Of a DNA stretch of 64,000 bases, positions 15,156 to 54,340 are shown piece after piece. Below the pieces are notes generated by a model. That model was not told the origin of the DNA. It saw only the letters and a list, made by a program, of their open reading frames with translations, and searched no databases. This DNA is from Diplonema papillatum (Eukaryota; Euglenozoa; Diplonemea; Diplonemida; Diplonemidae): assembly GCA_030068145.1 (NCBI GenBank), contig JAPJBO010001061.1, forward strand, positions 1-64,000, in the 5' to 3' direction. The position numbers and the translations under genes are program-made. How positions within the stretch are numbered: position 1 is the stretch's first letter; each line of letters begins with the position of its first letter.

Positions 15156-15638
15156 CTGTTGTTGCGTGTTGCTTTGCAGCGGAATTGCGTGAATGCAAAT
15201 ACAGGCGCTTTGTCTGCCCGTAGGCGACCCTTGAGTGCACAACTGGACTTTGCCCCCACACACGAAGCCTGAAAACATTGCATAAGGCACAAACGTGAGT
15301 AGCTTCCTTGTGCACCCGCTTCGATAATATGGTGCGTTTGAACCTCTGTTTTTGACAGTAACTGCCAGGTAACTGACAGTAACTGGTAAACCTTTGGGGA
15401 GGCAGAATTTTTTGGCACTTTTGTACTTAGCAAATTTCACGTCCTGGGGTCGCCAAAAAGATTTCACCCATTTGTCGCCGAATACGCCCTCGCGGAACCT
15501 GGATACCCAATTGTGGGCTGCACTAGCTGTCACGCTGCGGGATATGGGAGCATGAAAGCGAAGCGTGAGACCCAGATGGGGACACGAATAGACAGGGGGT
15601 ACTAAAGGGGCGTCGCGTCCGTTGAATAGCATCGCTTC

Positions 15639-15709
15639 CCGCAGGAAGTGGCAAGAGAACTAGCTTGCTTCCAGGCCCTTTCGGGTGTCTTTAAATCAAC
15701 ACGGAGAAT
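15639..15709 (+). repeat. 70-bp direct repeat, copy 1 (copy 2 at 16480-16550)
   Basis: A block starting CGCAGGAAGTGGCAAGAGAA and running through CAGGCCCTTTCGGGTGTCTT occurs here and again near 16480-16550 in the same orientation. The two copies bracket about 770 bp that contains the poly-C foldback and the hairpin element. Confidence 0.8.
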
Positions 15710-15817
15710 GTGCACTTCATCGGGAAAGCATCGAAGATTCAGATGAGTGGAGGAAGGGGGGTAGGTCTCAGCGCTCTTGTTAAGGATCAGCCACTTTGGC
15801 CGGATGGCCGGATAAAC

Positions 15818-16071
15818 CAGACCCCCCCCCCCCCCCCCTACAGTGCAGTTGCCTTGGAGGCTGGGTGGTCAAATTCTCTAAGGTGAAATGGTCAAAATTC
15901 CCTGCCAAAAGTGGGCCCACAAAAATTTTCCAAAGTGTGGTATTTGGGGTATTTGGGGCAAAAAAAAATTTTTTTTTTCTGACCGCCCACCGTGGTGACC
16001 ACCTTAGAGTGTGACAGGTAGCGTCTCCCCCCTCCACAGTGAAAATAGCCTGAGGGGGGGGGGGGGGGGTC
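15818..16071. repeat. Foldback candidate with poly-C/poly-G ends
   Basis: The segment starts with GAC followed by a long C run and ends with a long G run followed by TC, an inverted arrangement. CTCTAAGGTG near the left is mirrored by CACCTTAGAG near the right. It may be a small inverted-repeat element. Homopolymer lengths may be unreliable in the assembly. Confidence 0.45.
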
Positions 16072-16356
16072 AGCCGGCTGATGGATGGATGGATGGTTCT
16101 TAACAAGATGCCTGGTAGGTCTGGCACGCAAAACGGTCGGGAGCAGATTCCAGTAGTTTCCAGGTATTTCTCGGTCGGTTCGGAGTGGCTCTGTGTCCTG
16201 AACTTTGCCCCCAAAAGGTCCCTTTTAAACAAATTGAACCCCCATCTGTCTGTAAGTGGTTTAGGTGCCCCTCTTTTGCTCGCCACTCCACTGCTCTATT
16301 TCGTGACGCGATTCGCCATGTGAGTGAAATGGAAGCCTTCGGCATTTGTGGGCGCT

Positions 16357-16475
16357 CCGGGCCACAGACCGCTGCGCTGCTACACTGCCGCATGCCCATC
16401 TCGTTTTGACGTCAAAACGAGATGGACAGCGGAAGTGTAGCGCTAGTGGCAACAGCGCAGCGGTCTGTGGCCCGG
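16357..16475. repeat. 119-bp hairpin-forming inverted repeat
   Basis: The outer arms are a perfect 23-bp inverted pair (CCGGGCCACAGACCGCTGCG plus three bases at 16357-16379, complement at 16453-16475). The centre CCATCTCGTTTTGAC is directly followed by its complement (16397-16425). The right arm carries an extra insert of about 11 bp. It has the form of a small foldback element. Confidence 0.85.
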
Positions 16476-17479
16476 CTACGCAGGAAGTGGCAAGAGAACT
16501 AGATTGCTTCCAGGCCCTTTCGGGTGTCTTCAACTCAACACGGAAAGCAGTGGGCGCATGACATGCAGAATTCGTGTATTCCTACATCCATGAAAGCTAC
16601 ACCCTCCGTTTGTCTTCGCTGTTTGGGCTTCTACTTTCGCCCACCTTCTTTGTTTCTGGAGAGAGATCTTCCGCTACGGCTGCAGGGCCAGCCTTGGACG
16701 ACGCCAAAGTAGTGACTCTGGCGACGGACTCACTGAAGGCGAGGGCGGTGGTGTTGTCCGCGGTCATCACCTTGAACTGGCAGCCCGCGAATTCCTTTGT
16801 TCTTCTATGATCCTCGTTCACTTGATGGTATTGGGAGACACCGGAAAAAGGCCACGCTTCATGTGCCGCTAGGCATAGGTGGCGGGCGAGTCGCGACCTG
16901 CCCCAGACTCGCCCTGAGGCCCTCGAGCCCCCTTTTTTGACGCCGAGACTCGTCCAACTCACCCTTTGACTCGCCTCACTCGCCCCAGACTCGCCCTCCA
17001 AGGTGGCACACGTCGAAGAACACACTCCGCCTTTTCCGACGTGTTAGCCGCTGCCACGGTGCTCAAGAAGCCCGAGGGGCTGCCAATCTTGTTACACAAG
17101 TGCAGGAGAAGGGGTAGCCATACATGTAACCCCCCGACGGGGAAAGCAAAAACGACAGGGGCTTCCGGCTCAGCCCTCGACGGGGGTGCAACGGGGGGCG
17201 CGACGGGGGGAGGGGGGAAACGGGGGACACGGGGGTTCGAGGTTGCAGCGCTTTAGATGCCTGATGTGTTCATTCTTTGCGCGGCAACGTTGTCAGACGG
17301 CTGTAGAAGAGAGCTGTGCAAGCATGTGCGTATGCATAGGCAAAATAATTGCGTGTCCACGGTGATGTTGGCCCGTTCTAAGATACTCAGCTGTTCCCTG
17401 ATGGCCGAAGGTGCGCCTCCCATCTCGGTATCGTCGACAAAGTCCTCCCCACGTGCCCCAAGTCCCAAGTTCGGTTCAA

Positions 17480-17562
17480 GGGAGCGTCACATGCGAAGAG
17501 GTAACCGCGAACCGGCGATGCAGATGCTTGCCACAGATTCCGTGCATTCTAGCTCAAACAAT
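17480..17562 (+). mobile_element. Solo 3' end of the window's LINE family
   Basis: The stretch with GCGAAGAGGTAACCGCG, GGCGATGCAGAT and GCCACAGATTC matches the last codons and 3' UTR of the full LINE at about 52235-52308, in the same order. It looks like an extreme 5' truncation or decay remnant lying inside E1. Confidence 0.7.
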
Positions 17563-17904
17563 AACTGTCGAAAACAGTCGTAGATTGCATCGTGTGGATG
17601 GACCGGTTTCCGACTTCTGTGCCTGTCTGTCCTGCGGACTCCTTGCTCATTCTGATGCCACCTCCCGTCTAATTTGCACGTTTCTGTTCTCTCTGCCCAG
17701 GTTCGTTTGCTGAGTTGAGGGTACCAGGAGTCGGGGGTTCCACTTCGTCCGCTGAGTTGGGGATTCCACTTCGGTGCACATAGACTAAGGATGATTTCCA
17801 CGCCTCGACGCGCCAACAGCGCTACAGGTCTCAGCAGGAGGAGCTTGCCAAGACCCTCGCTCTGGTTCTAGCTATCTTCCACCCAAAGGGTACCAGAAAA
17901 CGAG

Positions 17905-17940
17905 GTGAAACCCCCGACGGGGGTGTCTCGGGGGTTTCAC
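17905..17940. repeat. 13-bp hairpin in E1
   Basis: GTGAAACCCCCGA (17905-17917) is mirrored exactly by TCGGGGGTTTCAC (17928-17940). Similar CCCCGTCGGGG motifs follow at about 17970. The function is unknown. Confidence 0.7.
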
Positions 17941-18804
17941 GGTGGGCCACGGGAGTGAAAATCCCCCGTCGGGGAATACATGTATGGATAGGAGTGAGAA
18001 TCGTAGTTTGATGTCTTGGGCAGAATACTGCCTGGTGAAGGTCTGCACATGTGCGGAGCTTCCAGGTAGTCACCGTCGTGTGTCGTTGTCGTCGTCGTCA
18101 GCGGCAAAAGAGTCACCACCATGCATCCGCAGAAACAGTCGGCTGTCGAATGTCTGCGATCCATGGTGGCGCGGTGTATCTTCTCGATGGCGTTCGTCAT
18201 CGAGAAGACGCTGTCGACTCCCGTCACGCTTAGCGGTGCGGCTCTCTGCTGCCTTTCCCCCCCAACACGTGTTTCTCCACCAAAATGGGGTTTTCATTGG
18301 CGGCAGGGTATTTGCCCTGATTTTTTTGTGGGTAAACCCCGCACCTGAGTGGGTCGGAAAAGGCACAAAACCTTGACCCTGCATGGCACTGAGGGCGAGT
18401 GAGGGCGGGTGAAGACGAGTCGGGGCGAGCCGCGACCGCCACTTGTGGCCAGGATGGCAGTAGACGACGCACACACCGGTATTCTCTGTTTGGCGCACCG
18501 CTTTTTCCCTCTGTTCTCACTTTTTGTTTTTCTCCACTCTTTGAGCGACTTCCAAAAGGTGCACGACTTCAGTACACCACGTGAAAGCAGGCCATGGCAC
18601 CCAGAAAAAAGTTGACCAGGACCGACCGACAGCAAAACTCTCGAAGTACAAAGTGTCCCAACAATAATTTTTGACATCCCCCCCCTGTTTTTGACAGTAA
18701 CTGCCAGGTAATTGACAGTAACAGGCATGTAACCTTCTGGGAAAACCAAACGCACCATAATAGTATGGCTGTCGGTTTGCTTTCTTTCTACCGCAAACGC
18801 ATAC

Positions 18805-18934
18805 CGGCAAGTTCGATTTTGCGGTTTCGAGAGCGTCGGTGTAAGCCTCCAGTGCGGCCTGGGTGTGTGCATCGTCGTTGGTAGCCTCGACGTGGTACCG
18901 GTGGTAGTCGCCCTGCATCTTCTTGAAGAAGACT
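18805..18934 (-). CDS. 14-3-3 gene 2, exon 3
   Basis: The exon is 130 nt, identical in length and phase to gene 1 exon 3. It runs from [18 protein letters not shown] to LETAKSNLP and contains the Arg-Tyr pair of the phosphopeptide pocket. The acceptor is CACAG and the donor GTATGC. Only 48 nt separate it from the right edge of element E1. Confidence 0.92.
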
Positions 18935-19280
18935 CTGTGGTGTTTGTGAGGTTGGGTCAAGGTTGTTTACAGTGCTTTGAGGCCTGAAGGGTCGATTTAG
19001 GTCATTACGGATGCTGTGTTCTTCCAAACATCGCAGTTCGCACCGTCGAGTTGCCGCAACGACGTTCCCAGTATATACAGAAAAGCCCCACTTTAAGTAG
19101 TGAACCGTCAAGTGTGCACTACAGCTGGAAACTTCACTAATTCGACCCGTTGAGTATAAAAACCTTCGCTGATAAAGCCCTCCACGAATGACCCATTTGC
19201 GGTACGCTCACTGTCGCTCTTCCCCATTTAGACTGTTTCGAGTTGCAAGCTCTTGTTCGTCGGGTTGCAAGAAAGGGTAC

Positions 19281-19387
19281 CTGTCGTCGCTTCCGCCGTG
19301 CTTGAGCACGTCTTGGGAAAGAAGGTTGATGATGTCTTCGCAAATATCCGACAATTCTTGCTCGACGAGTTGGCGGTAGGCGGCGAC
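19281..19387 (-). CDS. 14-3-3 gene 2, exon 2
   Basis: The exon is 107 nt, as in gene 1. It encodes VAAYRQLVEQELSDICEDI and continues to KHGGSDD, completing an Arg codon across the junction with exon 3. Borders are CAG acceptor and GTACCC donor. It is separated from exon 1 by a 9.4-kb intron. Confidence 0.92.
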
Positions 19388-20717
19388 CTGTTTTGTGGTG
19401 TTTTACGTGGTGTTTTGTTGTCATGTCTTGCGTTGGGCCGGGGCTGTTTCCTGGCCGGGTGGCACAACAAAAGCAGGAGATTGTTTGACGTACACCGATT
19501 GGCAGCACTGGTTTGCAACACTGCTGGCGTGTTGGGACTGCAACTGGTGTGCATTGTTTTTTGACTGACTGTCACACTCTGTGGGCAGGGTTGGGGAGTC
19601 TGATCAGATCTGATGCTGATTTTTCTGATTTTTCAGAAAATCAGAAAAATCAGAAAAATCAGATTTTTTCAGATTCTGTGCATAGTACCACATCCCGGTG
19701 CAAGTTTTGCAAAAAAAAATCAGTTTTCCACAAAGTTTCGTAAAGATTCCGTCTGGGAATGGGCGGCAAGGGTCAGCACCTGGAGAAAGAAAAGCGGATT
19801 CCGCTCCGGGTGACCATGTGCGCACCAAATTAGCCTCGGAGACTCTTGTTTTTACGTGCAGATTCCTCATTGCCAGCTCCCAAGACTCCTGCCTGTTCAC
19901 CACACCAGACACTGTCTGTCCGGTGTGATAATAAGGGGGTTTGAGACACATTTAGGGGCTTGCCCACTTGGGCCACCTTGGGGGTTAACAATGGAGGAAA
20001 TTTGGCAAAAACGTTGCGGGACGGAAAGAGCTATCCCTGGCATGTATCGGCACCTTTTCTACACTCGATATAGCCTAAAATCTGACCCCCAGGTGGCACT
20101 TCAGACTTTGGAAAAACCACTCCGCCAGGAATCGAACCAGCACCCTCAGCACCACATGTGGGTGTGGGAACCGCTGGACCACGTGCTAAAAGAAAGCGGG
20201 CCATTTCTATTCGGGTTCGGGTGGTTCTCAGAAATTATTGAATCCGAGGAAAATGCCATCGACAGCGAAATCAAGCTGTAAGATTGGACTCCCGGCTTCA
20301 GGAGCGTTCCACATTGAACTTCTCTCGAAAAAGAAGCTGCTCTCGAGTGGGGAAGCCCGTGGAAACCCCCAAACCCCCACTGAGGACAAATAATATTGTA
20401 TTCCAAGACTATGCTCACCAAAACCCCCTTTTCAGCGTACCTATTGTATTTGCCAATAATGTTTGTATTTGACTACCTACAGTATTTGACCCCCCCAGTA
20501 GAATACGGAAGACAGTAGGGAGTGTGCCCGACTTCTCGGCTGTCCGAGAAGCGTGCGAGTGCTCAGAGACTCCGGACCGAGCGAGAAACAGTCCCAAAAA
20601 CGACAACTCAGTGCATCGAACCAGCGCACCGGTGCGCTGCACCGCACCGGTCCGCCGTCCACACTGACTCTTGCATACAAGTTGAACGAGTGCGTGTGGA
20701 GTAAGATGGATTGTGTC

Positions 20718-20890
20718 TGGCGCTCTCTCTCCCTTAGGGTTGCCGCCCGAGGGAACCGGCTGTGAGCCGAAACTCGACGCCGGTCTCTCCGGACTGCACC
20801 AGGAGAGAACTTCGCGGCGGATCACAAAACACCCGCCCTGCACGAGGCACACGCCCAAGACCCGGCACGGCTACCGTAGCACCCTCCATG
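20718..20890 (+). repeat. Dispersed repeat (partner at 31262-31430)
   Basis: The segment from CTCTCCCTTAGGGTTGC through ACCGTAGCAC resembles 31262-31430 over about 170 bp in the same orientation, with frequent substitutions. Both copies carry similar minus-strand peptides, so it may be a piece of a once-coding element. Confidence 0.7.
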
Positions 20891-21079
20891 TTTGCACCTC
20901 CTCGGATGCTACGGTCGGGAAGGGGCTTCAATGTAGTTGGGAAAACACGTTCCGCGTTGTCTGCGTGTGGGGTTAGTGCCGCAGCAGCCGCAGATACGTC
21001 CTTCGCCCTTGTGTGTTCCTGGTTGGTGGTAGCGGTGTTTTGGTTCGCTTTTCCACGGTTGGACTGCAGATAGCCTGGT

Positions 21080-21250
21080 GCACTGCATCTTGTGAAGGAC
21101 CCACGAACGTACTGGTCCCCGGGGCTATCTTTCACGGATCTCCTCATCGGAGCTGAAGGAGAGCAAAATTTTGTCGAAAAAGTGCTGTGTCTCGGACCAG
21201 CGAAGAAATTTCACCACCCAGGGAGTCGATTCCCGCCCTTCCCAATGAAA
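21080..21250 (+). repeat. 200-bp-family repeat, left of the recombinase module
   Basis: CTCATCGGAGCTGAAGGAGA, CGGACCAGCGAAGAAA and TCGATTCCC occur in the order seen in the tandem units at 25290-25790. This single copy and those units flank the recombinase module in direct orientation. Confidence 0.7.
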
Positions 21251-21390
21251 ACCCACTACTGGGGTGGCCGGCTACATTGGAGACACACCAAATTTCACAA
21301 AAAATCCCATGTCTTTCACATGATATCACCAGTCGCTCTTGGGAACGTTTATGTAAGAAAGTGGAACCACGTGAGACACTGTGAAACACT

Positions 21391-21807
21391 GTGAAAAAGC
21401 GACCCGCGCCCTGCACCCCCACGGCCTCTCCCGCAGCCGCGCTGCGCGCACGACGACGACGACGCGCCGATCTCGGCGACGACGGCACTGGCCTCGCCGG
21501 CCCGAACACACCGCGCCCACCCGGCCCCGCCCGGCCCTCTTCGATGGCAGGCCCTGACACGGGCCCTTTTACTGATTCTGGTTCCGACCCTCCACGGGTC
21601 ACACAACGATCGCGCCCTCCCGCCGGCTCTTCCCGGCTACTCGCGTCCTCCGCATCGCGGCGTGCCTATCGGCGCAAGCGAGAAAGCGAAGACTCCGATT
21701 CCTTTTCGGATTATGAGATCGTGAGCAACTGCCAACAACAGTTGCAGCCGACTAGAGTTGCGCCGCGCCGAAAGCGCGGAAAAAGTGACCCTTCTGGAGT
21801 CACGTAG
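21391..21807 (+). CDS. Possible small protein, unknown
   Basis: An open frame of 138 codons starts with GTG; the first ATG in frame is near 21544. It is Pro/Ala/Arg-rich at the start and ends in SDSFSDYEIVSNCQQQ followed by a basic tail. It lies next to, and opposite in strand to, the recombinase module. No family is recognisable and GC-rich composition alone could keep it open. Confidence 0.25.
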   Translation: MKKRPAPCTPTASPAAALRARRRRRADLGDDGTGLAGPNTPRPPGPARPSSMAGPDTGPFTDSGSDPPRVTQRSRPPAGSSRLLASSASRRAYRRKRESEDSDSFSDYEIVSNCQQQLQPTRVAPRRKRGKSDPSGVT

Positions 21808-22135
21808 CGAAAAGCTGGCATAGTGTGGTACTCATTTGCTTGCAAATGACTCCCCACTAACGCAACAAGACGACGAAAAAGCGTGAAAGGGACCGAAATT
21901 CTGGGAAGTCTTGGGAAATTCTTGGGAAGATTTTGGAAGTTTTTTGAATACTTTTCCAGTTTTTTGGGGGCTATAGACTCCCTACCAACGTGAACACCAG
22001 CCCGAAACTGGGGAAATGGGAAGAAGAGCGAAGGAGAACAAAATTTTGGAGAAACTGTGAAACAGTGGGAAACTGAGCGAAGGAACAGGGGTTCTTTTTT
22101 TATGGTAACAAGCTTGCTTGTCCGCACCGCAGGCG

Positions 22136-22567
22136 TCACTTGGCATCGACGACCATCCGGCATCGCCTTGTCCGACCGCACGACACCCCCTGACATACCC
22201 CCCTGACATACGATCGCATAGCCAACGCGCCCAGTACGGATTCGGATGATCGCACCTTGGCTACGACGTCAGGTCGTGCTTCGACGATGAGGCTCTCGAC
22301 GCGCTCCTCTCTACCGTACTCTTCCAATTTCTCGCCGAGGTCGCCCTGCATCGCAGCATCTGCCCATTCAAACGCTCTTATCGTTGCTGTTGGAGCCCCA
22401 GGGTGAAACCTCTCAACCCACTCCTTCAAAGGATGGAACGCGCTCAGGTCTTCAGCATAAGCAGGGCAGAATGAACTAACTTTTGGTGACCCTTTCATTT
22501 TCAGTGCAGAGTCGTCCCGCGAACTCTCCAAGCGAGACATCTCTGTGTAGGGACGGCTATTTGTGCC
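22136..22567 (-). CDS. Unknown C-terminal-like domain following the 51-bp repeats
   Basis: This 143-codon segment is in the frame that reads the minisatellite as PPPQRHPLPEG units and follows it directly. It includes CPAYAEDLSAFHPLKEWVER and later EEYGREERVESLIVEARPDV, which look like ordinary globular protein, not low complexity. The frame differs from that of the recombinase, whose stop is at 23299. It could be a separate small ORF of the element or be joined by frameshift or splicing. No family is recognised. Confidence 0.4.
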   Translation of the reverse strand, partial: GTNSRPYTEMSRLESSRDDSALKMKGSPKVSSFCPAYAEDLSAFHPLKEWVERFHPGAPTATIRAFEWADAAMQGDLGEKLEEYGREERVESLIVEARPDVVAKVRSSESVLGALAMRSYVRGVCQGVSCGRTRRCRMVVDAK

Positions 22568-23281
22568 TCGCTCTGCGGAGCGGATTCCATTCGGTAACGG
22601 CTGCCTCTGCGGAGGCGGTGGCTCAGCGGAGCAGGTTTCCTCTCGAAAAGGGTGCCTCTGCGGAGGCGGGTGCTTTGTGGCACGCATTCCCTCTCGCAAG
22701 GGGTGCCTCTGCGGAGGCGGGCGCTCTGTGGCACGTTTTCCCTCTGACAAGGGGTACCTCTGCGGAGGCGGTTGCTCTGCGGAGCAGGTTTCCTCTGGCA
22801 AGGGCTGCCTCTGCGGAAGCGGGTGCTTTGTGGCACGCATTCCCTCTGGCAAGGGGTGCCTCTGCGGAGGCGGGCGCTCTGTGGCGCGTTTTCCCTCTGG
22901 CAAGGGGTACCTCTGCGGAGGCGGTCGCTCTGCGGAGCTGGTTCCCTCTGGTAAGGGGTGCCTCTGCGGAGGCGGGCGCTCTGTGGCGCGTATTCCCTCT
23001 GACAAGGGGTACCTCTGCGGAGGCGGTTGCTCTGCGGAGCTGCTTCCCTCTGGCAAGGGGTGCCTCTGCGGAGGCGGGCGCTCTGTGGCGCGTATTCCCT
23101 CTGACAAGCGGTACCTCTGCGGATGCGGGCGCTCTGTGGCGCGTTTTCCCTCTGGCAAGGGGTGCCTCTGCGGAGGCGGGTGCTCTCTGGCGCGTTTTCC
23201 CTCTGGTAAGGGGTACCTCAGCGGAGGCGGTTGCTCTGCGGAGCACGTTCCCTCTGACAAAGGGTGCCTCTGCGGAGGCGG
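22568..23281 (-). repeat. 51-bp minisatellite, 14 units
   Basis: Fourteen units of 51 bp (17 codons) lie directly after the recombinase. Read on the minus strand in one frame they give PPPQRHPLPEGKRATER-type units. The array is also stop-free in other frames on both strands, which creates several long shadow frames. Units differ by scattered substitutions, including synonymous and conservative ones. Confidence 0.93.
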
Positions 23282-23298
23282 TAGTTCTGCAGAACAAG

Positions 23299-24222
23299 CT
23301 AGAACACTGGCGCATGCAGATGCGCGGACAGTCCTTCTGTCCGTCGGTGGTCTGGGGTCACGCAACCCCAAAGATAACGCCTCAGCGTTGTCACCGATGC
23401 GTGTCTCGCAAGGAGCAGAAGCTCCTCCCAATCGGCACCGCCCCTCGCCAGGTGCTGTAGAGCACCCCTCTTCCAGCTGTGACCGGAGCAAGCCGGAACA
23501 ACGCTTTTTGCCGCCCGCAGCAAAGTCGGTGCGGTTGCCTTGCCAAACGTCCCGCGGTGCGCCAACCACCTCCTCACCTTCGCCGCCAGGTTCAGAGGGA
23601 GCTTGTACGTTACCTCCGACTCGTGTAGCCGAAGACTCGCCTCTTTCGACGTCCACCAGGTGATTCGGATTACACCCGGGGCCTGCATCGAAACGTCCCC
23701 CGGCCTCAGCGCAGTGAGGTCCGCCATCCTCAGCGCACAACTCCAAAGGAGTATCGCCGCGGCCGCGAGTTCCTCGTCTCCCGAGACGACGTCGAGGATG
23801 CTCCGTGCTTCTTCCAAACGCAGTGGGTGTGCGTGACTCGGCGTCTCTCTCCTTTCCAAGCGGCGTTTCAGGATGGCCCTCTTCGTCGTCGCCAGATCCG
23901 CCGGTGGGACACCCCATCTCGATCCGAGTACGCTTACGTACTGTTCCACCGACACAGTGCGCATCTTCCCGGTCCTTGGGCGGCCCCGCTTGCCTGCCTC
24001 TCGCGTCGTGTAGCGAGCAAGCTGGGCCTCGCCCATTCCGTCTAGCATAGCCGCCGCGAACGCTCTGATCCGCAGGGAAGCGGGTGCCGCTCGAAGCCCT
24101 GCCACTTGTGAGAACTTTTCTAGGGTTCCCTCCATTGACAGCTTCTGCCTCCTCGTCGAAGCTGCGATTGCAACGGATTCGAACTTCTCTATCCTTCCCT
24201 CCCACGACGCCTGGGAGGGGAG
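23299..24222 (-). CDS. Tyrosine recombinase of a mobile element
   Basis: Downstream of an in-frame TGA, 307 codons read a tyrosine recombinase; the first internal Met is at 24135. A SAM-like core-binding part (STRRQKLSMEGTLEKFSQV) comes first. Numbering from that Met, the catalytic part shows R136 in CALRMADL, K164 in WWTSK, H219 in HSWKRG, H245 in ARHASV and the nucleophile Y254 in LRRYL. The second arginine of the HxxR box is shifted: position four is Lys and the next residue Arg. This fold catalyses strand exchange in Crypton- and DIRS-type elements. No reverse transcriptase is visible nearby, which favours a Crypton-like DNA element, but the gag-like zinc-finger region upstream is unusual for that. 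The stop is at 23299-23301. Confidence 0.82.
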   Translation of the reverse strand, partial: LPSQASWEGRIEKFESVAIAASTRRQKLSMEGTLEKFSQVAGLRAAPASLRIRAFAAAMLDGMGEAQLARYTTREAGKRGRPRTGKMRTVSVEQYVSVLGSRWGVPPADLATTKRAILKRRLERRETPSHAHPLRLEEARSILDVVSGDEELAAAAILLWSCALRMADLTALRPGDVSMQAPGVIRITWWTSKEASLRLHESEVTYKLPLNLAAKVRRWLAHRGTFGKATAPTLLRAAKSVVPACSGHSWKRGALQHLARGGADWEELLLLARHASVTTLRRYLWGCVTPDHRRTEGLSAHLHAPVF

Positions 24223-24730
24223 TCAATCGTTTTTTGGGCTCCGCTTTGCCGACGCTGGCCCGGAGGTCCTTTGCGGAGCGGACACGTGCCTGAACCTACA
24301 ACGCTCACGAACGCAACGCCCATTGCGGAAATTGTGGCAGATCCCCGCCGGCCCCCTCGCGTTCGCAACCCGGTCGTTCCCGCGCTGCTTGACAACGGCC
24401 TTCAGTCGTCTACGGGCCTCCGCAACGTGTTTCGGGAGTCGCGCCGTCTCCTGGATGCCGCGCATCTCATGGCCCGCCGCCGGGTTCCTCGTGTCGTATA
24501 TTGCTTGTAGTTGTTCATATTCGTTGAACAGACGCGTCAACTTCAGCATCCACATCGGCGCGGCCGACGTCGGACCCCGCATTCTCAAATGCTCTCGGAC
24601 TTTGGCCGTGACGTCGTCTCGTCTTTCCTGCAGCTCTCGATTGCTGCGAAAACGGTATAGGCGACACCGCACCTTCGAGGAGAAGAAACCCTCTGACCCC
24701 AACCGGGGCGTCCTTCCAAAACGCCGCGTC
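24223..24730 (-). CDS. Gag-like region with CCCH zinc finger
   Basis: The frame is open from a stop at about 24731 to TGA at 24223-24225 and is the same frame as the recombinase beyond that TGA. It encodes an Arg-rich helical stretch (RELQERRDDVTAKVREHLRM) and near its end a CCCH finger, CHNFRNGRCVRERCRFRH (C-x7-C-x4-C-x3-H), typical of RNA-binding proteins. It overlaps the 3' part of the upstream coiled-coil frame, from which it is reached by a +1 shift. The TGA is followed by CTC. Confidence 0.65.
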
Positions 24731-25174: not shown

Positions 25175-25289
25175 TTTGAAGTTTTTTCCCCTGACCTGCG
25201 GGTCAGTGGCGCCAAAAAACCGGAAAGGGAGAAGGTGTGTGTTTGGGTGTTCACCTATATTGTTGGGAGAATAAGACTAAGCGTAAAAA

Positions 25290-25790
25290 GACTGCGTGTT
25301 TTTTTTCACCGAGCAAAAATTCATCGAATAGCTCTGTCACGTAGACCAGCGAAGAAATGTCACCAACCAGGGATATATTCCCGTCCTCCCCAGTGTAAAC
25401 CTGGTTATCTCCTCGCCCGGTGCCCTGCACCTCGTCGGGACCCACGAACCACGCACATGATTTCTGATCTCCGAGTCTACTTTTCACGATCTCTTCATCG
25501 GAGCTGAAAGCGAGCAAAAAATCGTCGAAAAAGGTGTGCTACATGGACCAGCGAAGAAAAACCACCAACCAGAGGATCGATTCCCACCTCGCCAGCGTTT
25601 ACCTGGTAGTTTCCACACCCGGTGCCCTGCAACTTGGAAGGGTCCACGAACCACACACACCTTTTTCCCCAAGTCGATTCTTCACGGATCTCTTCATCGG
25701 AGCTGAAAGCGAGCAAAAAGTCTCGTAAAAGGTCTGCCACGTGAACCAGCGGGAAAATGCCACCAACCAGGGTATTCACTACTATGTGAG
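25290..25790 (+). repeat. Degenerate tandem repeat of about 200 bp
   Basis: Two and a half to three units are marked by GGTGCCCTGC at 25419 and 25621 (202-bp spacing). Each unit contains TCTTCATCGGAGCTGAAAGC, GACCAGCG and ACCACCAACCAG variants. Related copies are at 21080-21250 (same strand) and about 26490-26690 (opposite strand). Confidence 0.8.
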
Positions 25791-30822: not shown

Positions 30823-30884
30823 GAGGTAGCAAGTTTAGCGCCAGTACCCGGGGGGAGACCCCCAATCCGTTTCCCGTGTGCACA

Positions 30885-45282: not shown

Positions 45283-45353
45283 TTTCATCATCCACGGCTG
45301 CCTCGTGCAGCTAGAGAACCCCGACTGTGGAGGACAACAAACAGTCAAATAAT

Positions 45354-45428
45354 GGTGTGGTCGGTGGGCCAGTTCCCCGTAGTTCCCCCGTAGTTCAACA
45401 TGGCGGGGGGGTGTCTTTTTTTTTTTTC
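45354..45428 (+). repeat. Extra left-end copy of the E4 terminal module
   Basis: GGTGTGGTCGGTGGGCC, the CCCCGTAGTTC tract and GGCGGGGGGGTGTC plus T-run repeat the 43707 end in the same orientation. The two copies bracket the USP gene as direct repeats about 1.65 kb apart. Confidence 0.85.
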
Positions 45429-45828
45429 GTTTCTTGTTTTTGCTGAGTGCTTCAGGGATGCAGCCTTGGGTCCTGGAGAGCGTTTCTAAGCTACTTTGCA
45501 CTTTTTCGTCACAAAATATGGACAGTTTCGGGTTATTCGAGCGTATCACGATCAAAGACCCCAGGAGACAAGCCACCTGGTCCGGGCCAAAATCGGTGAA
45601 TTTCGGGGGGTAATTCCTTTGTGGCGACCACTTTCTGCAGTCGGCCCTGGCGAAGGTGGGGCGGAAGAGCTACAAAGGTGCAGTATTACGGCCCCAACTT
45701 GCGCAGAGCGCCATGTGCTATGCGTGCCCCGAAGAGGAAGGAATAGGATGAGAAGGAAGGACAGACTGGGAGTCACGGTTTGACAGGATCAGCTGCGGTA
45801 AGGAGAGCGGGAAATGTTCTATCAGAGG

Positions 45829-46570
45829 CCCCGCACCGGCCGGGTTTCGAAGCGATCGCGGGACCGGAGACCTTCGCGGCGGTCGGAGGAGAGAGGTGGT
45901 TCCGGGCGCTGCAGTATTGGCTGGATGGGATGTGCTGGTCGGTGGTGGGTGACGTCTCGATGGTGGAGCTCGCCGTCGACTTTGAAGTGTGCACCAAACT
46001 GGATCTTCCGGGCAGTGTCGTAGCGACGACGGACGGGACACCGTTGAGCATGTGCGAGGGTACTCGCAAAACTTTTAAAACCCGTCGGGGATGCGCTGGA
46101 GCGAAATCTCCGCTTCTGCCAGACAGGAAACTGGAGAAGATAGGTCGCTGAGCACGGTGGGAGCCCCGCCGTGCCTCACGGGGTACGAGATGAGGCCGAT
46201 CTTCCGTGGTGGTACGGAGACAGCTGACGACGGCACGAGTTCAGCGGCGAGGCGTGAGCGGCGAGGCGTGAGGATGGATCTTTTCCCGACGTACGGAGGT
46301 GGAAGGGAAGAGCGTGCGGCGAGATGGGCGGTGTTCAAGCTACGGAACACGAAAAGTGGAGTGAGACACGAGCACCAGGAAGTGAAGTGCGGCGTATGAA
46401 AGCGCCGGGGCAGCAACCGATAAACCTGGACGAGCAATCGAAGAAGAAGCGAGGCGCCAAACGCGTGCCTGAGCGCGACGATCAAGTCGAGCTAAAGAGG
46501 CGAAAGCATGACACATCACGTACAAAGAGATAACCGCGACACCGCAAATTGCCACAGAACATTTGCATTC
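45829..46570 (+). pseudogene. Decayed 3' copy of the LINE
   Basis: From FEAIAGPETFAAVGGERWFR onward this matches the C-terminal part of the LINE ORF (50915-52253), with an internal deletion, stops and shifts. It ends with the same 3' sequence (CGCGACGATCAAG, GAGATAACCGCG, TTTGCATTCTAA). The Cys/His-rich tail is deleted. Confidence 0.85.
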
Positions 46571-47640
46571 TAACCCAAAATATCAGAGGTGGTCGCGGTC
46601 GAAGACGGCAACTCGAGCGAGGAGTAAGTTTGATAACCAGAATGACAGGCAGAATGGCCATGCTGAAGGCAAGGTTGCGTTGCAGGAAGAGAAACTGGTG
46701 CTTGGCCGAGGATAAGACGGCTGGCAGAACAGAGAGACAGCGAGTCCTTCTTGTGGGTAGTCAAGCCTTCGCAGTCCCAGGACCTCCGCCCGCTTGCATA
46801 CAGCCGTCGACTGGCCTTTCCGACGAGTTGGAATGCAGGTACCATCTCCGGAGAGCTTCCGGTTTCTCCCAGAGTAGAGGAGCTGATGCAAACGCCACCT
46901 GGGCTTCTGAACGTGATTGCGGATCACCTTCTTGCCCAAACCCAGAGGGATTAGAGTGTCGGAATGGCGCCAAGGAGAGGCTCTGGCTTGTTTGCTTCTT
47001 TCGCTGGCGAGGGGGACTTCGGACACGTCAAAGCCTTGGGCTCTTCAGGCTCTGCATCCTTCTGTTCCAGCGATCGTAGAGCAGTTTGCCCACAACAACA
47101 TTAACCTTGAATGGCATGCTTCGGGTGAGGGCATGCATTTTATCAAGAAGTAACTTCTTATCAGCTTCCCTTCCATGCAGACATGCAGACACAAGTTGGA
47201 CTCAAGCACATCCTTTCGTCTATCACCGGACTCTTGATTGCGTGGTGCCAATTTTATCTGTGGGCTGTCCAAAACATCCTGCAGATCTCGATCAGGCCTC
47301 TGCCACCCGTCACGATAACGCGATTATTTTCAAGGACCAGTACAAGCACGCAATGGTAGCAACTGAGCTTTTCCTTCAGTCCTCTGGGGAACGTTGAAGG
47401 GGGTCCGGTAGCGAGCTGTACTTAGGTTCCTGCAAGCGTGAGCCAACCGACTTCTGCGAGTCCCGCGATAGCGTTCGAGTCTACTTTCCAACGAATCCTT
47501 CATGCCACGGCGCCACGAAAGCACCACCCCCGACACCCCGAAGGCTCCATTTTTCAAAAGGCTTGGCCCTTCTGTGGAAAGCCCAAGCAAGAGGAACCGT
47601 TTTGCTCACTCCAAAGTTCCCGGTTTGGCGCCAGTGCGTG
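46571..47640. other. Unassigned part of E4
   Basis: I see no gene. Frames on both strands here are short and unlike known proteins. Confidence 0.4.
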
Positions 47641-47746
47641 GCGTTTGAAAAATCCACTACAAAAAAAAAAGACACCCCAAGGTCAGTTCCCCGTAGTTCC
47701 CCCGTAGTTCCCCTGGCTATACCGACCACACCATATATGCGCACTT

Positions 47747-47873
47747 GTTTTTTTGCAAATATATGCATGTTCGTACAAACATGCATATATTTGCAAAAAA
47801 ACTTAAGTTTTTTTGCAAATATATGCATGTTTTTTTGCAAATATATGCATATGCATATATTTGCAAAAAATAT
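47747..47873. repeat. Array of inverted TTTTTGCAAATATATGCAT motifs with a 56-bp perfect palindrome
   Basis: The motif TTTTTTTGCAAATATATGCA occurs four times or more in alternating orientation. Positions 47777-47832 form a perfect 56-bp palindrome centred on CTTAAG. It lies between the right end of E4 and the 5' end of the LINE. Confidence 0.93.
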
Positions 47874-47986
47874 GTCAAAATTTTGGAGGATCAAATTTTT
47901 AGTGTTTTTTGGTCCAAAGATTGGGTCCAAAATTTGGGTCCAATTCACCTAGCCCCCCTGAAAGTGACTTTAGCTCGATTACGCGT

Positions 47987-48003
47987 CGATTACACTCGAT
48001 TAC
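47987..48003. repeat. 17-bp target-site duplication of the LINE, copy 1
   Basis: CGATTACACTCGATTAC occurs here and at 52309-52325. Both flanks contain further TCGATTACAC units, so the target itself was a short tandem repeat. Confidence 0.75.
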
Positions 48004-51000
48004 ACTGTACTTTATTGGTGTCTTGCCGTGGACACTCTCGAAGGAGAGCGGCACCGGGATCCGTCCCGGTAAAAGGAAGCACCAAGAAAGTATTAAGAGG
48101 ACGAAGACAAAGAGAGAAGACCGACGACACACACACACACACACATACACATCAAGCTGTACAACCCCGAGAGCGCGCAATGACGGATCCGGGGTTCAAG
48201 GAACTTGCCGCCCAGGTGCAGGCTCAAGGTAAGCAGATGGCTGATCTGATGGCCGCAGTCAGCGGGCTGGTAAAGCAGGCTCAGACGGATGGCGCGAAGA
48301 AGCAGAGTACAACAAACGCTCCCAGCTGGGCGGATGACGAGGTGCCCAAAAGGGCGCGGATTGCATCTGCGACGGACACCGGGACGGGCGCAGACACATA
48401 TGCCTCGAGCAGAGTCCGGAAGGCGATGAACGGCCTCGACGCGTATATCCGAGGGTTGCAAGCTCTAAATGGGGAAGGACCTGGGTGCATGCCGAGGTCG
48501 CTGGAGAAGACGTGGCAGAACGTGGTGTCTGGTCTGGATTCTATGGCCGGACAATTACCGAAGGTGCGCAATCTCCCGCGGCGTCCACCGGACTTGAGCG
48601 TCGCCCAGACCGTCAGGCAGAAGCTGGAAGCGAGAAGCCGTTCACTGACGGCACAAGCGCGTAAAGGAAGGATTGCACAGCTGGAGAACAAGATGCAAAA
48701 CCTCCACTGCGCGAACAAAGGGCAGTTGCTACCGTGGTGCAGGAAGAAGAGGGCGGATGGCCTGGTGGCGCTGAAGGTGGAGGGGCAGTACACGGCGAAT
48801 GCGCGGCAGATCGATGCGGCGTTGCAGAAGGAGTGGGCGCCGGTTAACCGGATGTACGAGTGCAAACAGGAGCCAAGCTATGAAGCGTTCCGGACGGAGT
48901 ATGCGGAGTACATCGAACATCGTCCGATGGAATGCCGAGATTTGACGGGCGAGGATCTGAGAAGCATTCTTGGAAAGAAGAGGGATGGCGGTGTCCCAGG
49001 TGTGGACGGATGGAACACAGCGGAGCTGAAGAAGCTGCCATTGCCGCTCCTGGCAGCGGTGTTCAACGCGATAGAAGCGACCGGGACGTGGCCGAACGCG
49101 TTGTTGGAAGCCGCGGTCACACTGATCCCGAAGGACGAAACTCTTGACCCGCTGGCGTTGCGGCCGATCACCGTCACAAGTGCGATCTATCGCTTGTGGG
49201 CGAGTACGCGGCTCAGGGACGTCGTCCAGTGGCAGGAGAAATGGATAGCGAATAGCCAGCACGGGTTCAGGCCCAAACACGGAACCGTGGACGTGGTATT
49301 CGAAATCGCCTCGCAAATCGAAGAAGCGCTCTTGACGGGAAGGGAGCTATACGGCGTGGCCCTAGACTTTGCCAAGTGTTTTGACAAGGTGCCGCGAGAC
49401 ATCGTGTTGAAGCTGGTGGGGGAGCTGGGCCTCCATGAGAGAATCCTCGGGCCGCTGCGCGACATTTACGCGCGACTACGAAGGCGGTACAAGCTGCACA
49501 TGGGAGTGGGAGGTGTCTTCTTCACCACCAATGGGATACTGCAGGGCTGCCCCCTGAGCGTGATCCTCATCAACGCGCTGCTGTCCATCGTGGTGCGCAG
49601 AGTGGACGACGTGGGGGGGGTGACGAGCGAATCCTTCGCGGACGACCTCACCCTCCTGTCGCGTCTCAAGGAAGCCTGCTTGCAGAACGCCTTGGTGGAA
49701 GTCGACAGATTTTGTTCGAACACCGGCATGTCGATCGGGATACCGAAGACGTTTGCTTTTGGGACGCCGAAGGCGTATGAAGCGAAGTTGAGGGTAGGCG
49801 GCGCACTTATCGCGACGAAGGAGGAGCTCACCATCGTTGGGTGTCTAGTCGGCACGAAGCGAACACGCAGGACAACGGACCTGCGCTACGACCAGCGTGC
49901 AGAGGAGGCCGAACGGTTGGGAGCTCTGCCGATCTCGATGACGCAGAGGTCGGGACTAGCGGCGATGGCAGTTTTACCGGCGGCGACATACGGCTCGGAG
50001 TTCGCGCTTCCGACGGTGCGGGGGCTGGGGAAGTTCACCGCAGCGTTACTCAGAGGCGTCTGGGACCCGGTGAGGCTGCATCGGGCACAGGAGGCCGTGT
50101 TGGGCATTCTAAACAAGGCCCACGTGCTCGACCCCTACTCAGTGCTGCCGTATCGGTCGCTCGGTATGATTGCAGAAGTGTGCCGAAAGAGGCCGGTATG
50201 GAGGGCCCGCGTCGCAACAGTTCGAAGGGCGTATGGCAGCAGAATCCGCGCATGGGGACCGATCGGTATTGCGGCCGAGCATGCAAAAAAGCTCGGTATA
50301 CGATGGACGGAAGATCTCGACGACGCCGAGGACGAGGCAGGGAATGTGCTGAGGCTGGTGCGACAGAGTAAGGGGGAGCGAGGGCACACCCTGAGAAAGG
50401 CGATTCACGGCTGGCGACTAGGGGAGCTCGAGAAGAGGCGCACAAACTTCGGAGGGGTACGGGCGGGTGTCGACTACACCGCGACGAATGCCTACGGGCT
50501 GAAGGCGTCGACAACGCTGACGGCCGCGCGGGACGTTGCCGAGGTCGTAGCAGGGTCGGTGATGACGGAATCACATGCTGCCAAGCTGTGGGGAGGTGAC
50601 GGGCTGTGCAGACGCTGTGACGAGGCGACGGAAGAAACTCTGGGCCACATTTGGTGGCAGTGCCGGGCGTATGAACGAATCCGAATGCAACAGCAGTATG
50701 CCGAAATTGTTGACGCAGATCGCTCGACTTGGCCTCCGTGCCTGCAAGAACACGGGATTCTGCCGAAGGGAAGTCGAATCAACATCGAAGTGCTGCACAC
50801 ATTCATGGCGGAAGTCATGCAAGAGAGACGACGGCTGGAGAGAGAAGGAAGAGACCGGGCAGTCGGCCACCCCTGGAGACAACTGCACCCTGACGACTGC
50901 CCCCCGCGCCGGCTGAATTTCGAAGCGATCGCTGGACCGGGGACCTTCACGGCGGTCGCAGGAGAGAGGTGGTTCCGGGCGCTGCAGTATTGGCTGGATG

Positions 51001-52308
51001 GGATGTGCTGGTCGGTAGCGGGTGACGTCTCGACGGCAGAGCTCGCAGTAGACTTCGAAGTGTACACCGGGCTCGATCTACCGGGCAGTTTAGTGGCGAC
51101 GACAGGTGGGACGCCGCTGTGTATCCGTGCGAGAATGTTGGCGCGGATGCTGAAAACGATCGGGGAAGCGCTTGAGCGGAAAGGGGTGGGGCCGCTTCTG
51201 CCGGGTAGAAAGCTGGAGAAGATAGGTTCATTGAGAACGGTAGGGGCCCCCCCATGCCTCACGGGCTACGAGATGAGGCCAATTTTCCGCGGCGGCGAGG
51301 AGACGATGGGAATCTTGGAGACGCAGCTGAAGGCGAGCCGGCATGCGTTCACCGGCGAGGCGTGGGGGATGGACCTTTTCCCGACGTACGGAAGAGAAAG
51401 GGCGGAGCGTGCGGCGAGATGGGCGGCCTTCGATGACGCTACGGAGAAGAAGAGAGGCAAGAAGTCGGCTGTCGTCGGAGGGGATCCGTGGCTCGTGCCG
51501 GAAGGGATTCCCCGACACGAAAAGTGGGGTGAGCGGGTGTGCCCCGGGCACCAAAAGGTGAAGTGCGACGTGTGCAAGCGCCGGGGCAAGTCGGTGGCGT
51601 GGTGCTGCCAGGCCCATCACAGGGAGGGTGATGGCCTAGCCGTAAAAATGTGTGCCGAGCACCGGATGACGCAGTGCGCCACGTGTAAGACGACAGCGGA
51701 GTGCTGTCGCAACCATCACCACCGATGCCTCGACCATGGCATGCCGACGTGCGACGGCTGTAAGAAACACGCCGACCTGAGGAGTAGGAGACCCGGGCAC
51801 TGCTGCAGGAAAGGGCACCACCGGGCGGCCGTGGCGAGAGGTGAAGAAACAACAACGGAGAAGAGGAAGGCGGAGCCGGAGGGTCCCGCGCCAGCGCCGA
51901 GACAGGCGAAACGTGAGAACGTGGTGCTCGTTCTGCCGGAAGCAGAGGAAGACGAGCGAGAACCCGCAACATCAACGCCGACATCAGCAGCGAAGGTCGG
52001 GAAGACGGCGCCAACGCCAGCGAAGAAGCGGCAATCAGACTCCGCGGCGGAGCCGGTACCGAAAAGACGCAAAGGACGCGTCGATGCGCCACGACCATCG
52101 CCCAGGCGCCGAGAAGAAGCAGATATCGACGCGCAACCGATGAACCTCGACGAGCAATCGAAGAAGAAGCGAAGCACCAAACGCGCGCCTGAGCGCGACG
52201 ATCAAGACGAGCTAAAGAGGCGAAAGCATGACACTTCACGTGCGAAGAGATAACCGCGCAGTCGGCGATGCAGATTATCGCCACAGATTCTTTGCATTCT
52301 AATCCAAA
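48004..52308 (+). mobile_element. Full-length-looking LINE, 4.3 kb
   Basis: The insert lies between 17-bp duplications and carries one long intact ORF. It starts about 176 bp upstream of the ATG, includes a (CA)n tract at 48127-48152 and ends after TTTGCATTCTAATCCAAA without a poly-A tail. Two partial copies of the same family are in the window (45829-46570 and 17480-17562). Confidence 0.85.
48180..52253 (+). CDS. LINE polyprotein: reverse transcriptase and zinc-binding tail
   Basis: One uninterrupted ORF encodes 1357 aa from ATG 48180 (MTDPGFKELAAQVQAQGKQM). No AP-type endonuclease precedes the RT. RT motifs are in order: LRPITVTSAIYRLWAS, HGFRPKHGTVDV, motif A GVALDFAKCFDKVP (Asp about residue 396), motif B LQGCPLSVILINALL (about 455), motif C SFADDLTLLS (about 486). 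LCRRCDEATEETLGHIWWQC near 808 is the CCHC knuckle common after LINE RTs. A conserved-looking segment (FEAIAGPGTFTAVAGERWFR, ELAVDFEVYTGLDLP) follows, then a dense Cys/His array at about 1120-1217 and a basic tail. An endonuclease may lie in the C-terminal part, but no PD-DxK pattern is obvious to me. It copies element RNA at the insertion site. Confidence 0.92.
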   Translation: MTDPGFKELAAQVQAQGKQMADLMAAVSGLVKQAQTDGAKKQSTTNAPSWADDEVPKRARIASATDTGTGADTYASSRVRKAMNGLDAYIRGLQALNGEGPGCMPRSLEKTWQNVVSGLDSMAGQLPKVRNLPRRPPDLSVAQTVRQKLEARSRSLTAQARKGRIAQLENKMQNLHCANKGQLLPWCRKKRADGLVALKVEGQYTANARQIDAALQKEWAPVNRMYECKQEPSYEAFRTEYAEYIEHRPMECRDLTGEDLRSILGKKRDGGVPGVDGWNTAELKKLPLPLLAAVFNAIEATGTWPNALLEAAVTLIPKDETLDPLALRPITVTSAIYRLWASTRLRDVVQWQEKWIANSQHGFRPKHGTVDVVFEIASQIEEALLTGRELYGVALDFAKCFDKVPRDIVLKLVGELGLHERILGPLRDIYARLRRRYKLHMGVGGVFFTTNGILQGCPLSVILINALLSIVVRRVDDVGGVTSESFADDLTLLSRLKEACLQNALVEVDRFCSNTGMSIGIPKTFAFGTPKAYEAKLRVGGALIATKEELTIVGCLVGTKRTRRTTDLRYDQRAEEAERLGALPISMTQRSGLAAMAVLPAATYGSEFALPTVRGLGKFTAALLRGVWDPVRLHRAQEAVLGILNKAHVLDPYSVLPYRSLGMIAEVCRKRPVWRARVATVRRAYGSRIRAWGPIGIAAEHAKKLGIRWTEDLDDAEDEAGNVLRLVRQSKGERGHTLRKAIHGWRLGELEKRRTNFGGVRAGVDYTATNAYGLKASTTLTAARDVAEVVAGSVMTESHAAKLWGGDGLCRRCDEATEETLGHIWWQCRAYERIRMQQQYAEIVDADRSTWPPCLQEHGILPKGSRINIEVLHTFMAEVMQERRRLEREGRDRAVGHPWRQLHPDDCPPRRLNFEAIAGPGTFTAVAGERWFRALQYWLDGMCWSVAGDVSTAELAVDFEVYTGLDLPGSLVATTGGTPLCIRARMLARMLKTIGEALERKGVGPLLPGRKLEKIGSLRTVGAPPCLTGYEMRPIFRGGEETMGILETQLKASRHAFTGEAWGMDLFPTYGRERAERAARWAAFDDATEKKRGKKSAVVGGDPWLVPEGIPRHEKWGERVCPGHQKVKCDVCKRRGKSVAWCCQAHHREGDGLAVKMCAEHRMTQCATCKTTAECCRNHHHRCLDHGMPTCDGCKKHADLRSRRPGHCCRKGHHRAAVARGEETTTEKRKAEPEGPAPAPRQAKRENVVLVLPEAEEDEREPATSTPTSAAKVGKTAPTPAKKRQSDSAAEPVPKRRKGRVDAPRPSPRRREEADIDAQPMNLDEQSKKKRSTKRAPERDDQDELKRRKHDTSRAKR

Positions 52309-54248
52309 CGATTACACTCGATTACGCTCGATCAACATTTGGGTGAATTTTGGGGGGGTACTGCAGTAAGGACCAACTCTACTGATGCCGCGCTTCTTTG
52401 CCAAAGCAAGAAGCGCCGCGTTCGTACTTTCTGCATCGCATCCTTGAATGCGGGAGACCAAGTCCTTCTTGTTCAACTTCTGTGTCGCGGTGAAGCGACG
52501 AGCGTCAGCTTGCTCCATGAGGAGCTCCTTCGGTCAGTTGGTGTCAGAATCGAACCGCAGTTCCACGTTCTGGCGGTACGCCTCCCGCCGTTGCTTTCTC
52601 CTGCGAGCTTTACCAGCTATCTTCTCTTTCTTGGCGAGGTAGTCCAACTTCAAGCGCCCCAGGCGTACTTTGCGATCATGGATGCTTTCGATGATTGCTG
52701 ACGCCACCGTATTTTCAAGGCATCTTTGCACCCGAAGTGGTAGACGGGGAGGTGCCGCGGTGCAGCAGGCCTTTCAGTCGCGGTGCGCGACAGCAAATGT
52801 CAAATCCGCCGGTTTCCCTGATCCGCTATTTCTTGCTTGAGCTTTCCGACCGTCAGGGATGGGCCAAGCGTTACAGGACGCGGAACGAGAGGGGTCTTCC
52901 TGAGTGCAAAACCTTTGTACTTCCAAGATGAACCCGCAGGCTGCGTGGTGCAGCAGGCCTTTCACTTGTGTTGCAGTCGGAAAGTGGGGTGATCGCCCGA
53001 GACGAAGTGCCTTTGCTCCATAGTACTTTCAAATTCCGTGACGTACAACACCGTCGGGAAGGTTGGCGTTCACTTGTGTCACTGCTTCGGGATCGGGGTA
53101 CGGTTGTCTTCCACGACAGCGTCTCAGGTGTGACCCGACATTCCTGAGGAACACCCAGCACAGTTTCCCTACGTCGCACCATTCTCGCGATGTCTGCTTT
53201 CATTGCAACGATGGACAAACTTAAGGACAGCGATTTCACGATGCCAACCGTGAATGTGAGGTTTGTGTGATTACCATCAGCAAACCCCCACAGAGCTCTG
53301 AAGAAAGGGTACACAACAAGAGCGAAGCCTAGACCCAGCCTGCGATCTGTAGTCTGAGCATCTTGCTTCCCTAAGCGGTGCAGGACGTTCGTCTTTGCAG
53401 ATGACTGCGATACCATCTCAGGGAACTTACCGAAGAACACGAGTAGCAACTCAAGTACCGACTTTCCCGAGTTTCCAACATGGGCACTCATGCAGAACGC
53501 AGCATGGGCACTCATGCAGAACGCAGCAGCCCATGCAGGGCCAAACCTGCCGAGTGTGGCGCGCTGCCACACAAAAACGGTCTTGCCCAAATGGGGCTTC
53601 CTCGTCCAGTACATTCAACGCAATCAGTTCGCCTGTCAACTTCGCCAAGTACTGAATCATCTTCTGGATGATACCATTGACGGCATGTGATGTGAACGTC
53701 GAGGTGGTGCCACAGGATTCTCCCTTCATCGTTTTTCCATGTCGCTGTAAAGTGGCCACCGGCCCGTTGCGAAGCCGGGTCTGGTGGCCCAGTTTCGAAC
53801 TGCAGGGCGACATTGCAGGTTTGGGTTTCCTTCAGGAACTCCATATCGCGAGACTAGGTTCAAGGCCCAGATCTCTTCGACGCGCCGACGAGACACCTTT
53901 GCTTACCCACTCGTGCATGAGAATACCTACGACGGTGCGCAACCGTGTCGTCTGCTTCCTGGCTGCCAGCGACATAACGTCTCTCGCACTCAACCAGAAC
54001 AGTTACGTCTAGGATGCGTGGGATGCCAAAGGAAAACAAAAGTGACAATGCACTCGAGTCTGGTCGAACAACATCGTCAGCCTCCATCACTTCTCCTTTC
54101 CTCTTGGCAAATCCCTGTTTTCACATTTCTTTCGCTCCCAGTGCTCAAATGTCATCAAAAGGCTGCATGAAAAGGTGTGGAAACCCCGTCTGAAATGCAT
54201 TACCCCCCTAGCCGAAACCCGGGTTCCTGGAAAAATCCCGAGCGCCGG
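52309..54248 (-). pseudogene. Decayed coding DNA of E3
   Basis: Minus-strand protein-like pieces are broken by stops and shifts: ASAIIESIHDRKVRLGRLKL with a basic AGKARRRKQRREAYRQNVEL (52534-52731), NKKDLVSRIQGCDAESTNAA (52312-52518), and LGLGFALVVYPFFRAL with SIVAMKADIARMVRRRETV (52871-53614). The family is not recognised; this may be the relic of the E3 transposase gene. A duplicated 21-bp tract lies at about 53480-53522. Confidence 0.4.
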
Positions 54249-54340
54249 AAAAATAATTTTTGGACACCCCTTTCGAGTTTTCCGTAGTTCTTCCGTAGTT
54301 CTACCATGGTTTCACCGTACTAGATGGATCACACCATTTA

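Follow-up and report, generated by a model that had tools for sequence, protein, structure and literature searches.

Repeat arrays of one direction between inverted terminal segments in transposable elements of Diplonema papillatum

How a transposase chooses one left and one right end of its element has been worked out for few systems. The housefly hAT element Hermes makes an 8-bp target duplication and, in the parts of the source used here, its left-end repeats STR2-7 are antisense and its right-end repeats STR1-5 sense, symmetrised versions show little or no movement, and an element with two left ends is not rescued when repeat asymmetry is put back into the first 50 bp of one of them (PMC10368747). 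As far as those passages go, the difference between ends thus need not lie in the polarity of the repeats alone. The same passages do not state whether sense is given per end or along the element, which bears on any likeness drawn to Hermes. Many hAT elements have subterminal repeats, and the hAT-derived Kat1 element of Kluyveromyces is a further example of asymmetric ends, according to the sections consulted (PMC4763223). In the P element, which makes an 8-bp target duplication, 9 versus 21 bp lie between terminal repeat and binding site, a difference likened to the 12/23 signals in the excerpts drawn on (PMC7776569). Likewise, the available part of a study of piggyBat reports asymmetric ends and inactive symmetrised donors (PMC11707139).

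Here we describe elements whose ends carry an inverted tip, then a direct block of 10-11-bp repeats, then a deeper inverted segment. Their two end types, told apart by array direction, are called A and B. Ends that must differ are already known from Hermes and piggyBat, and the compact layout seen here is a new variation; an inverted-direct-inverted arrangement of this kind was not found in searches of the open-licence literature, and the portion seen of a survey of Ectocarpus transposons names no such element (PMC12477816). The statement in a preliminary description of this DNA that no transposon family had been described this way was, however, too strong, given that the end repeats of Hermes differ in sense in the passages cited (PMC10368747). 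Within the limits of those sources, the likeness to Hermes, i.e., inverted tips with subterminal repeats that differ in sense between the ends, is close, not proven identical. The AAG(T/C) motif of Hermes is spread over long ends, whereas here a compact array with 10-11-bp spacing lies between inverted segments, the duplication is 5 bp rather than 8 bp, and no hAT-family sequence similarity was detected. Kat1, from what its source offers, is domesticated and has hexamer repeats without a compact phased array. As in the P element and the RAG signal sequences, the ends differ in an inner feature, but those differ by spacing and these by a flipped block. Asymmetric ends are also shared with piggyBac and piggyBat, although piggyBac, so far as described in the material used, has palindromic inner sites at different distances.

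The window, i.e., the whole stretch of 64,000 nucleotides that was analysed, belongs to contig C1061 (JAPJBO010001061.1) of the D. papillatum assembly (271 Mb, 2910 contigs), and the gene pieces within it are split as by introns. It contains the elements E1 to E4, with the following features.

15330-18757, + strand: E1 TIR element, tips TGGTGCGTTTG, duplication TAATA at 15325-15329 and 18758-18762
15343-15398, + strand: E1 left repeat block of CAGTAACTG units, direct partner of 18682-18741
18682-18741, + strand: E1 right repeat block, direction as the left block
26101-28429, + strand: E2 TIR element, tips TGGTGCGTTTGA, duplication GAAAA on both sides
26123-26167, + strand: E2 left repeat block
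27096-27305, + strand: E2 relic of the shared large protein, around its conserved A.G...E / LGPS..EG region (E 8.7e-6 and 1.5e-6)
28363-28407, + strand: E2 right repeat block, direction as the left block
43493-54336, - strand (that of the gene relic): E3, B end left and A end right, duplication TTTAA on both sides
43508-43557, + strand: E3 B-end repeat block of CCGTAGTTC units
43557-43580, + strand: E3 deeper inverted segment, left arm, 24 bp
52390-54003, - strand: E3 broken relic of a 738-aa-type protein
54249-54272, - strand: E3 deeper inverted segment, right arm, 24/24 bp complementary
54273-54322, + strand: E3 A-end repeat block, direction as the B-end block
43706-47733, - strand: E4 as bounded in the preliminary description, a composite inserted in E3, duplication TATAT on both sides
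45353-47733, - strand: standard E4-family element, B end at 45353 and A end at 47733, flanks unmatched (AATAA / TATAT)
45367-45396, + strand: E4 B-end repeat block of CCCCGTAGTTC units
46992-47484, - strand: E4 relic of a 796-aa-type protein in two pieces, 46992-47198 and 47287-47484
47681-47710, + strand: E4 A-end repeat block, direct, 97% identical to 45367-45396

Comparison with relatives showed that E4 and a LINE-like element interrupt E3, whose own sequence is 43493-43686 plus 52368-54336 (2,163 bp), and we therefore rejected E3 as a 10.8-kb autonomous element. E4 directly adjoins the LINE-like ORF (1502 aa with RVT_1, 47745-52253), of which truncated pieces are also present in E4-family copies, and the reverse transcriptase was accordingly discarded as a part of the element. 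A separate E3 copy, L050, has an insertion at 345-5782 that contains a 330-aa zf-CCCH ORF and a 960-aa ORF with a weak RVT_1 match (E 0.028), possibly another retroelement. E4 consists, in order, of a decayed extra B end at 43706, a UCH-like ORF (44038-45282) and the standard element. The flanks of the outer E4 pair match (TATAT) whereas those of the inner pair differ (AATAA, TATAT), and on the simplest reading the upstream solo B end would have been used with the shared A end, with the UCH-like gene piece carried along.

The outermost bases of E1 to E4, read directly, are inverted as had been claimed (TGGTGYG...CRCACCA), with exact inverted tips of 11 bp in E1 and 12 bp in E2 by alignment. 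The element bounds given at first were one base short on each side (T on the left, A on the right). Perfect 5-bp target duplications flank E1 (TAATA), E2 (GAAAA), E3 (TTTAA) and the outer pair of E4 (TATAT), and so these are insertions. Across 36 flank pairs, a set that includes the L034/L044 and L047/L048 doubles, the inner E4 pair and the first F5 copy, 25 were identical at length 5 and none at length 6, compared with 1.7% agreement between flanks of different elements. A 7-bp duplication was considered and rejected, as there was always a mismatch beside the tip and the length is 5 bp once the T/A is assigned to the tip. Inverted tips with a constant short duplication, here of exactly 5 bp, are what is expected of cut-and-paste TIR elements.

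To score the middle block, the best local score in direct orientation was compared with the inverted orientation and with the maximum of 1000 shuffles. The scores were 60 direct, 21 inverted and 26 for the shuffle maximum in E1, 61, 14 and 24 in E2, and 55, 8 and 18 in the window copy of E3, and thus the claim of a direct middle block holds far beyond chance for these three. The E4 pair as bounded in the preliminary description (27, 22 and 27; maximum 26 over 500 shuffles) equals the shuffle maximum, because its outer left end is the decayed B end; with the standard B end at 45353 the values are 55, 22 and 23. Direct blocks were also found in an autonomous E4 copy (56 direct vs 16 inverted, shuffle maximum 26), in the E3 copies L033 and L049 (60 and 65 vs 8, maximum 18 and 17), in a second E1 copy with an imperfect duplication GTCAT (L089), and in a further family, F5 (62 vs 8, maximum 21). 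For the deeper segment, scored against the maximum of 500 shuffles, the claimed inversion is clear in E3 (48 vs 22), where the inner TIR is indeed a perfect match (24/24 bp), and in E4 (30 vs 28), but marginal in E1 (22 vs 24) and E2 (21 vs 22). The repeat units are spaced 10-11 bp apart, about one helical turn; their sequence varies between families, yet is common to both ends within each family, and both how many there are and where they lie differ from end to end and from family to family. Since the E1/E2 unit CAGTAACTG is nearly palindromic and antisense matches occur, polarity in these two elements rests on the whole block.

Of 20 regions fetched, L038 and L040 were dropped, as a strict end pattern showed a single end in each. 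All 18 complete pairs joined one A and one B end; because the two regions in each of L034/L044 and L047/L048 are for the most part the same sequence, each was counted as one locus, leaving 16 distinct loci. A looser pattern gave 1243 matches in the assembly, compared with 326 for a reversed-pattern control. The 100 of these 1243 that were listed comprised 66 ends in pairs, 20 single A or B ends, three F5 ends and 11 other sequences, and all 33 inward-facing pairs among the matches listed, counted by eye, were A-B, with no A-A and no B-B; one pair (C30:392992) is present in both sets. For these pairs, the comparison of ends across the genome that had been proposed as a check agrees with the design, and no pair with inverted blocks was seen among the complete pairs read. 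The inner segment occurs 94 times in the assembly as an exact match, and, by eye, the outer tip was still present at 28 of 30 loci cut out around it. As common descent explains the constancy of A-B pairs within a family, the weight of the argument lies on comparison between families.

F5, with CCGGGTTC units, is represented by two copies with the direct-block design, one with the duplication TCCTC on both sides (L087) and one with unmatched flanks, CCATA and CCAAG (L085). For a further F5 end, L086, and for L088 of the E2 family, no partner end was found within the 3.2-3.5 kb read. Near the F5 end on C18 (L086, around 1768) we recognised an SSU-like stretch by eye. Ends were aligned from the tip inward, and same-type ends matched directly between E3 and E4 (E4A-E3A 44 vs 15 flipped; E4B-E3B 36 vs 10) and between E3 and F5 (E3A-F5A 22 vs 8; E3B-F5B 32 vs 8), whereas unlike ends of E3 and F5 matched only when flipped (E3A-F5B 23 vs 10; E3B-F5A 26 vs 9). 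Between E4 and F5 the alignment is uninformative, with 12 vs 14 flipped (A-A) and 14 vs 14 (B-B) for same-type ends, and E4A-F5B leans the opposite way (20 vs 12). E1 and E2 agree with each other at their B ends (34 vs 18) and weakly at their A ends (36 vs 30), and do not align clearly with E3, E4 or F5. A B-type end was also found at C14:399211 (L004), on the 3' side of an open 801-aa gene as in E3 and E4; it matches F5B from the tip (56 vs 10) and F5A and E3A only when flipped (42 vs 8 and 22 vs 8), while its alignment with E4 is uninformative. No end was found in the 601 bases beside a relative of the gene on C2.

Because A matches A and B matches B for E3-E4 and E3-F5, the polarity of the ends appears, on balance, to be old and conserved rather than the product of recurrent inversion. 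Of the two explanations first offered for the design, an orientation-fixed site is supported by these matches and by the same polarity in every complete pair, and the recurrent block inversion is not.

The E3 and E4 families carry two ORFs, both read in the direction from A to B. Three E4-type copies (L081-L083; 4,656-4,657 bp, 99.98-100% identical) encode proteins of 796 and 325 aa and have perfect, different duplications (GAGTA, GCCAT and TACAT). All 57 gene copies scored, out of 1562 first-look candidates, were open and identical over 796 aa, so the E4-type burst is very recent, and judging by sequence identity the autonomous E4-type element is recently mobile. A relative of E3, L049, contains a 738-aa and a 377-aa frame; comparison of the two families gave identities of 37% over 706 aa for the large protein and 28% over 224 aa for the small one. 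A search of the genome with the 738-aa protein, in which 61 of 659 candidates were scored and gave 73 matches, found 793-aa open frames 99% identical to the query on C1400 and C169; open frames that are divergent lie on C14 (46%, 801 aa), C419 (44%, 780 aa) and C2 (44%, 768 aa, matching over residues 2-632); the numerous 38% matches are mostly E4-type copies. Relics of the large-protein gene are present in the window copies of E2, E3 and E4, and none was found in E1. Four residues of the 796-aa protein, D190, D272, E551 and E574, are the same in the 738-aa-type protein, and the positions of E551 and E574 are both kept in the E2 relic; these four are candidates for a catalytic set, offered as guesses, such as a DDE (RNase H-like) transposase would have.

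No family reached the cut-off in Pfam scans of the 796-, 325-, 738- and 377-aa frames, a PDB sequence search of both large proteins returned only weak, unrelated-looking matches, a protein-database search with 8000 candidates scored per search gave none below the cut-off, and scans of viral contigs found no relative. Across the libraries searched, the putative transposase hence has no recognisable relative. A duplication of 5 bp argues against plain membership of hAT or of the P elements, both with 8 bp, and hAT transposase homology was found neither in the Pfam scans of the four frames nor in the PDB searches of the two large ones. Transposases of the hAT superfamily have an N-terminal BED zinc finger; here a CxCG...H..C stretch without a Pfam match lies in the separate small ORF, common to both small proteins (325 and 377 aa). 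A very remote hAT kinship may exist. The target of piggyBac is TTAA, and here the 5-bp duplications vary in sequence. Transib and RAG-like elements combine a 5-bp duplication, CAC-type tips and a RAG1-like transposase; the duplication length agrees, but the tips are TGGTGYG and neither Pfam nor PDB gave a match.

We lean slightly towards reading these elements as cut-and-paste transposons of one lineage in which the oriented repeat arrays make the A and B ends non-equivalent. The large protein would be the transposase, acting at the tips, and a DNA-binding part of the large or small protein would read the array, whose repeats recur about once per helical turn. The direct arrays face inwards at the A end and outwards at the B end, and their polarity would therefore make the two ends different in the synapse. 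With the tips paired side by side, the arrays would be antiparallel only in an A-B pair, and for this reason a bridge formed by a two-fold symmetric protein could join A to B, but neither A to A nor B to B. The suggestion that the block tells left end from right fits what is seen; its functional role, i.e., that polarity governs end pairing, is something we infer from sequence. If correct, movement should stop when one block is reversed. The fuller proposal, that this is a superfamily-unplaced and very recently active lineage in which the polarity of an array with about one repeat per turn of DNA codes end identity and antiparallel arrays zip only in the A-B synapse, is a tentative one that we would not yet back; if it were true, the 12/23 rule would have a counterpart based on polarity. 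Several families with the flipped array and dozens of identical open copies of one family occur in this one genome.

The strongest alternative is that the arrays serve as ordinary subterminal binding sites and increase affinity, with orientation of little importance and the direct polarity a frozen accident from one ancestor. Such repeats are common in hAT elements in the sections of the source used (PMC4763223), here they differ in number and position from one end or family to another, and all of the E3-E4-F5 polarity could trace to a single ancestor. Polarity has nevertheless been retained through changes of repeat sequence at both ends and through protein divergence to 37% identity, and we consider an accident possible but on the unlikely side. 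Much less probable is that the middle block was inverted repeatedly and independently in each family. The same design with several block sequences, and E1 and E2 not clearly aligning with the other families, would suit such a history; the like-with-like matches of E3-E4 and E3-F5 and the lack of any inverted-block pair among the pairs read speak against it.

Scarcely more credible, and if anything a little less so, is an inner element with GGGGTGTC ends that jumped into a small outer repeat, with the direct blocks as its long target duplication. It could draw on the deeper segment being a good inverted repeat in itself in E3 and E4, but the 5-bp duplication is located at the outer tips, the outer tip was kept at the 28 of 30 loci noted by eye, and the block sequence changes with the family. 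That the elements are retroelements, with the direct blocks as remains of terminal repeats, is highly improbable. RVT_1 is present in the ORF within E3 (47745-52253), and TG...CA tips with a 5-bp duplication would suit an LTR element; however, this ORF is absent from the other E3 copies compared, its pieces in E4-family copies come from a truncated insertion, and there are no long direct terminal repeats. Finally, the chance pairing of unrelated solo ends, named at the outset as a possible refutation, has next to no likelihood, for although E4 as first bounded takes in a second B end and solo ends do exist (the 20 single ends among the 100 matches listed of 1243), the perfect 5-bp duplications at E1 to E4 refute it.

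Some further observations concern the surroundings of E1 and E2. The window holds paralogous gene copies, which we take to be 14-3-3-like, at 122-2023 and 14943-29078, and E1 lies in an intron of the second copy, as does a TIR element of about 9 kb (19585-28585) with near-identical arms (45 bp at 100%, 102 bp at 97%). Its tip, (G)CAGGGTTGGGGAGTC, is presumably of a kind resembling hAT elements, it holds a 696-aa ORF (22136-24226) over 51-bp tandem repeats, and E2 sits close inside its right arm. A clean empty site for E1 or the 9-kb element was sought in the paralogous gene and none could be shown, because the exons of the paralogues align but the introns have diverged. An isolated LSU rRNA fragment of eukaryotic type, passing its threshold, is located at 9561-9703.
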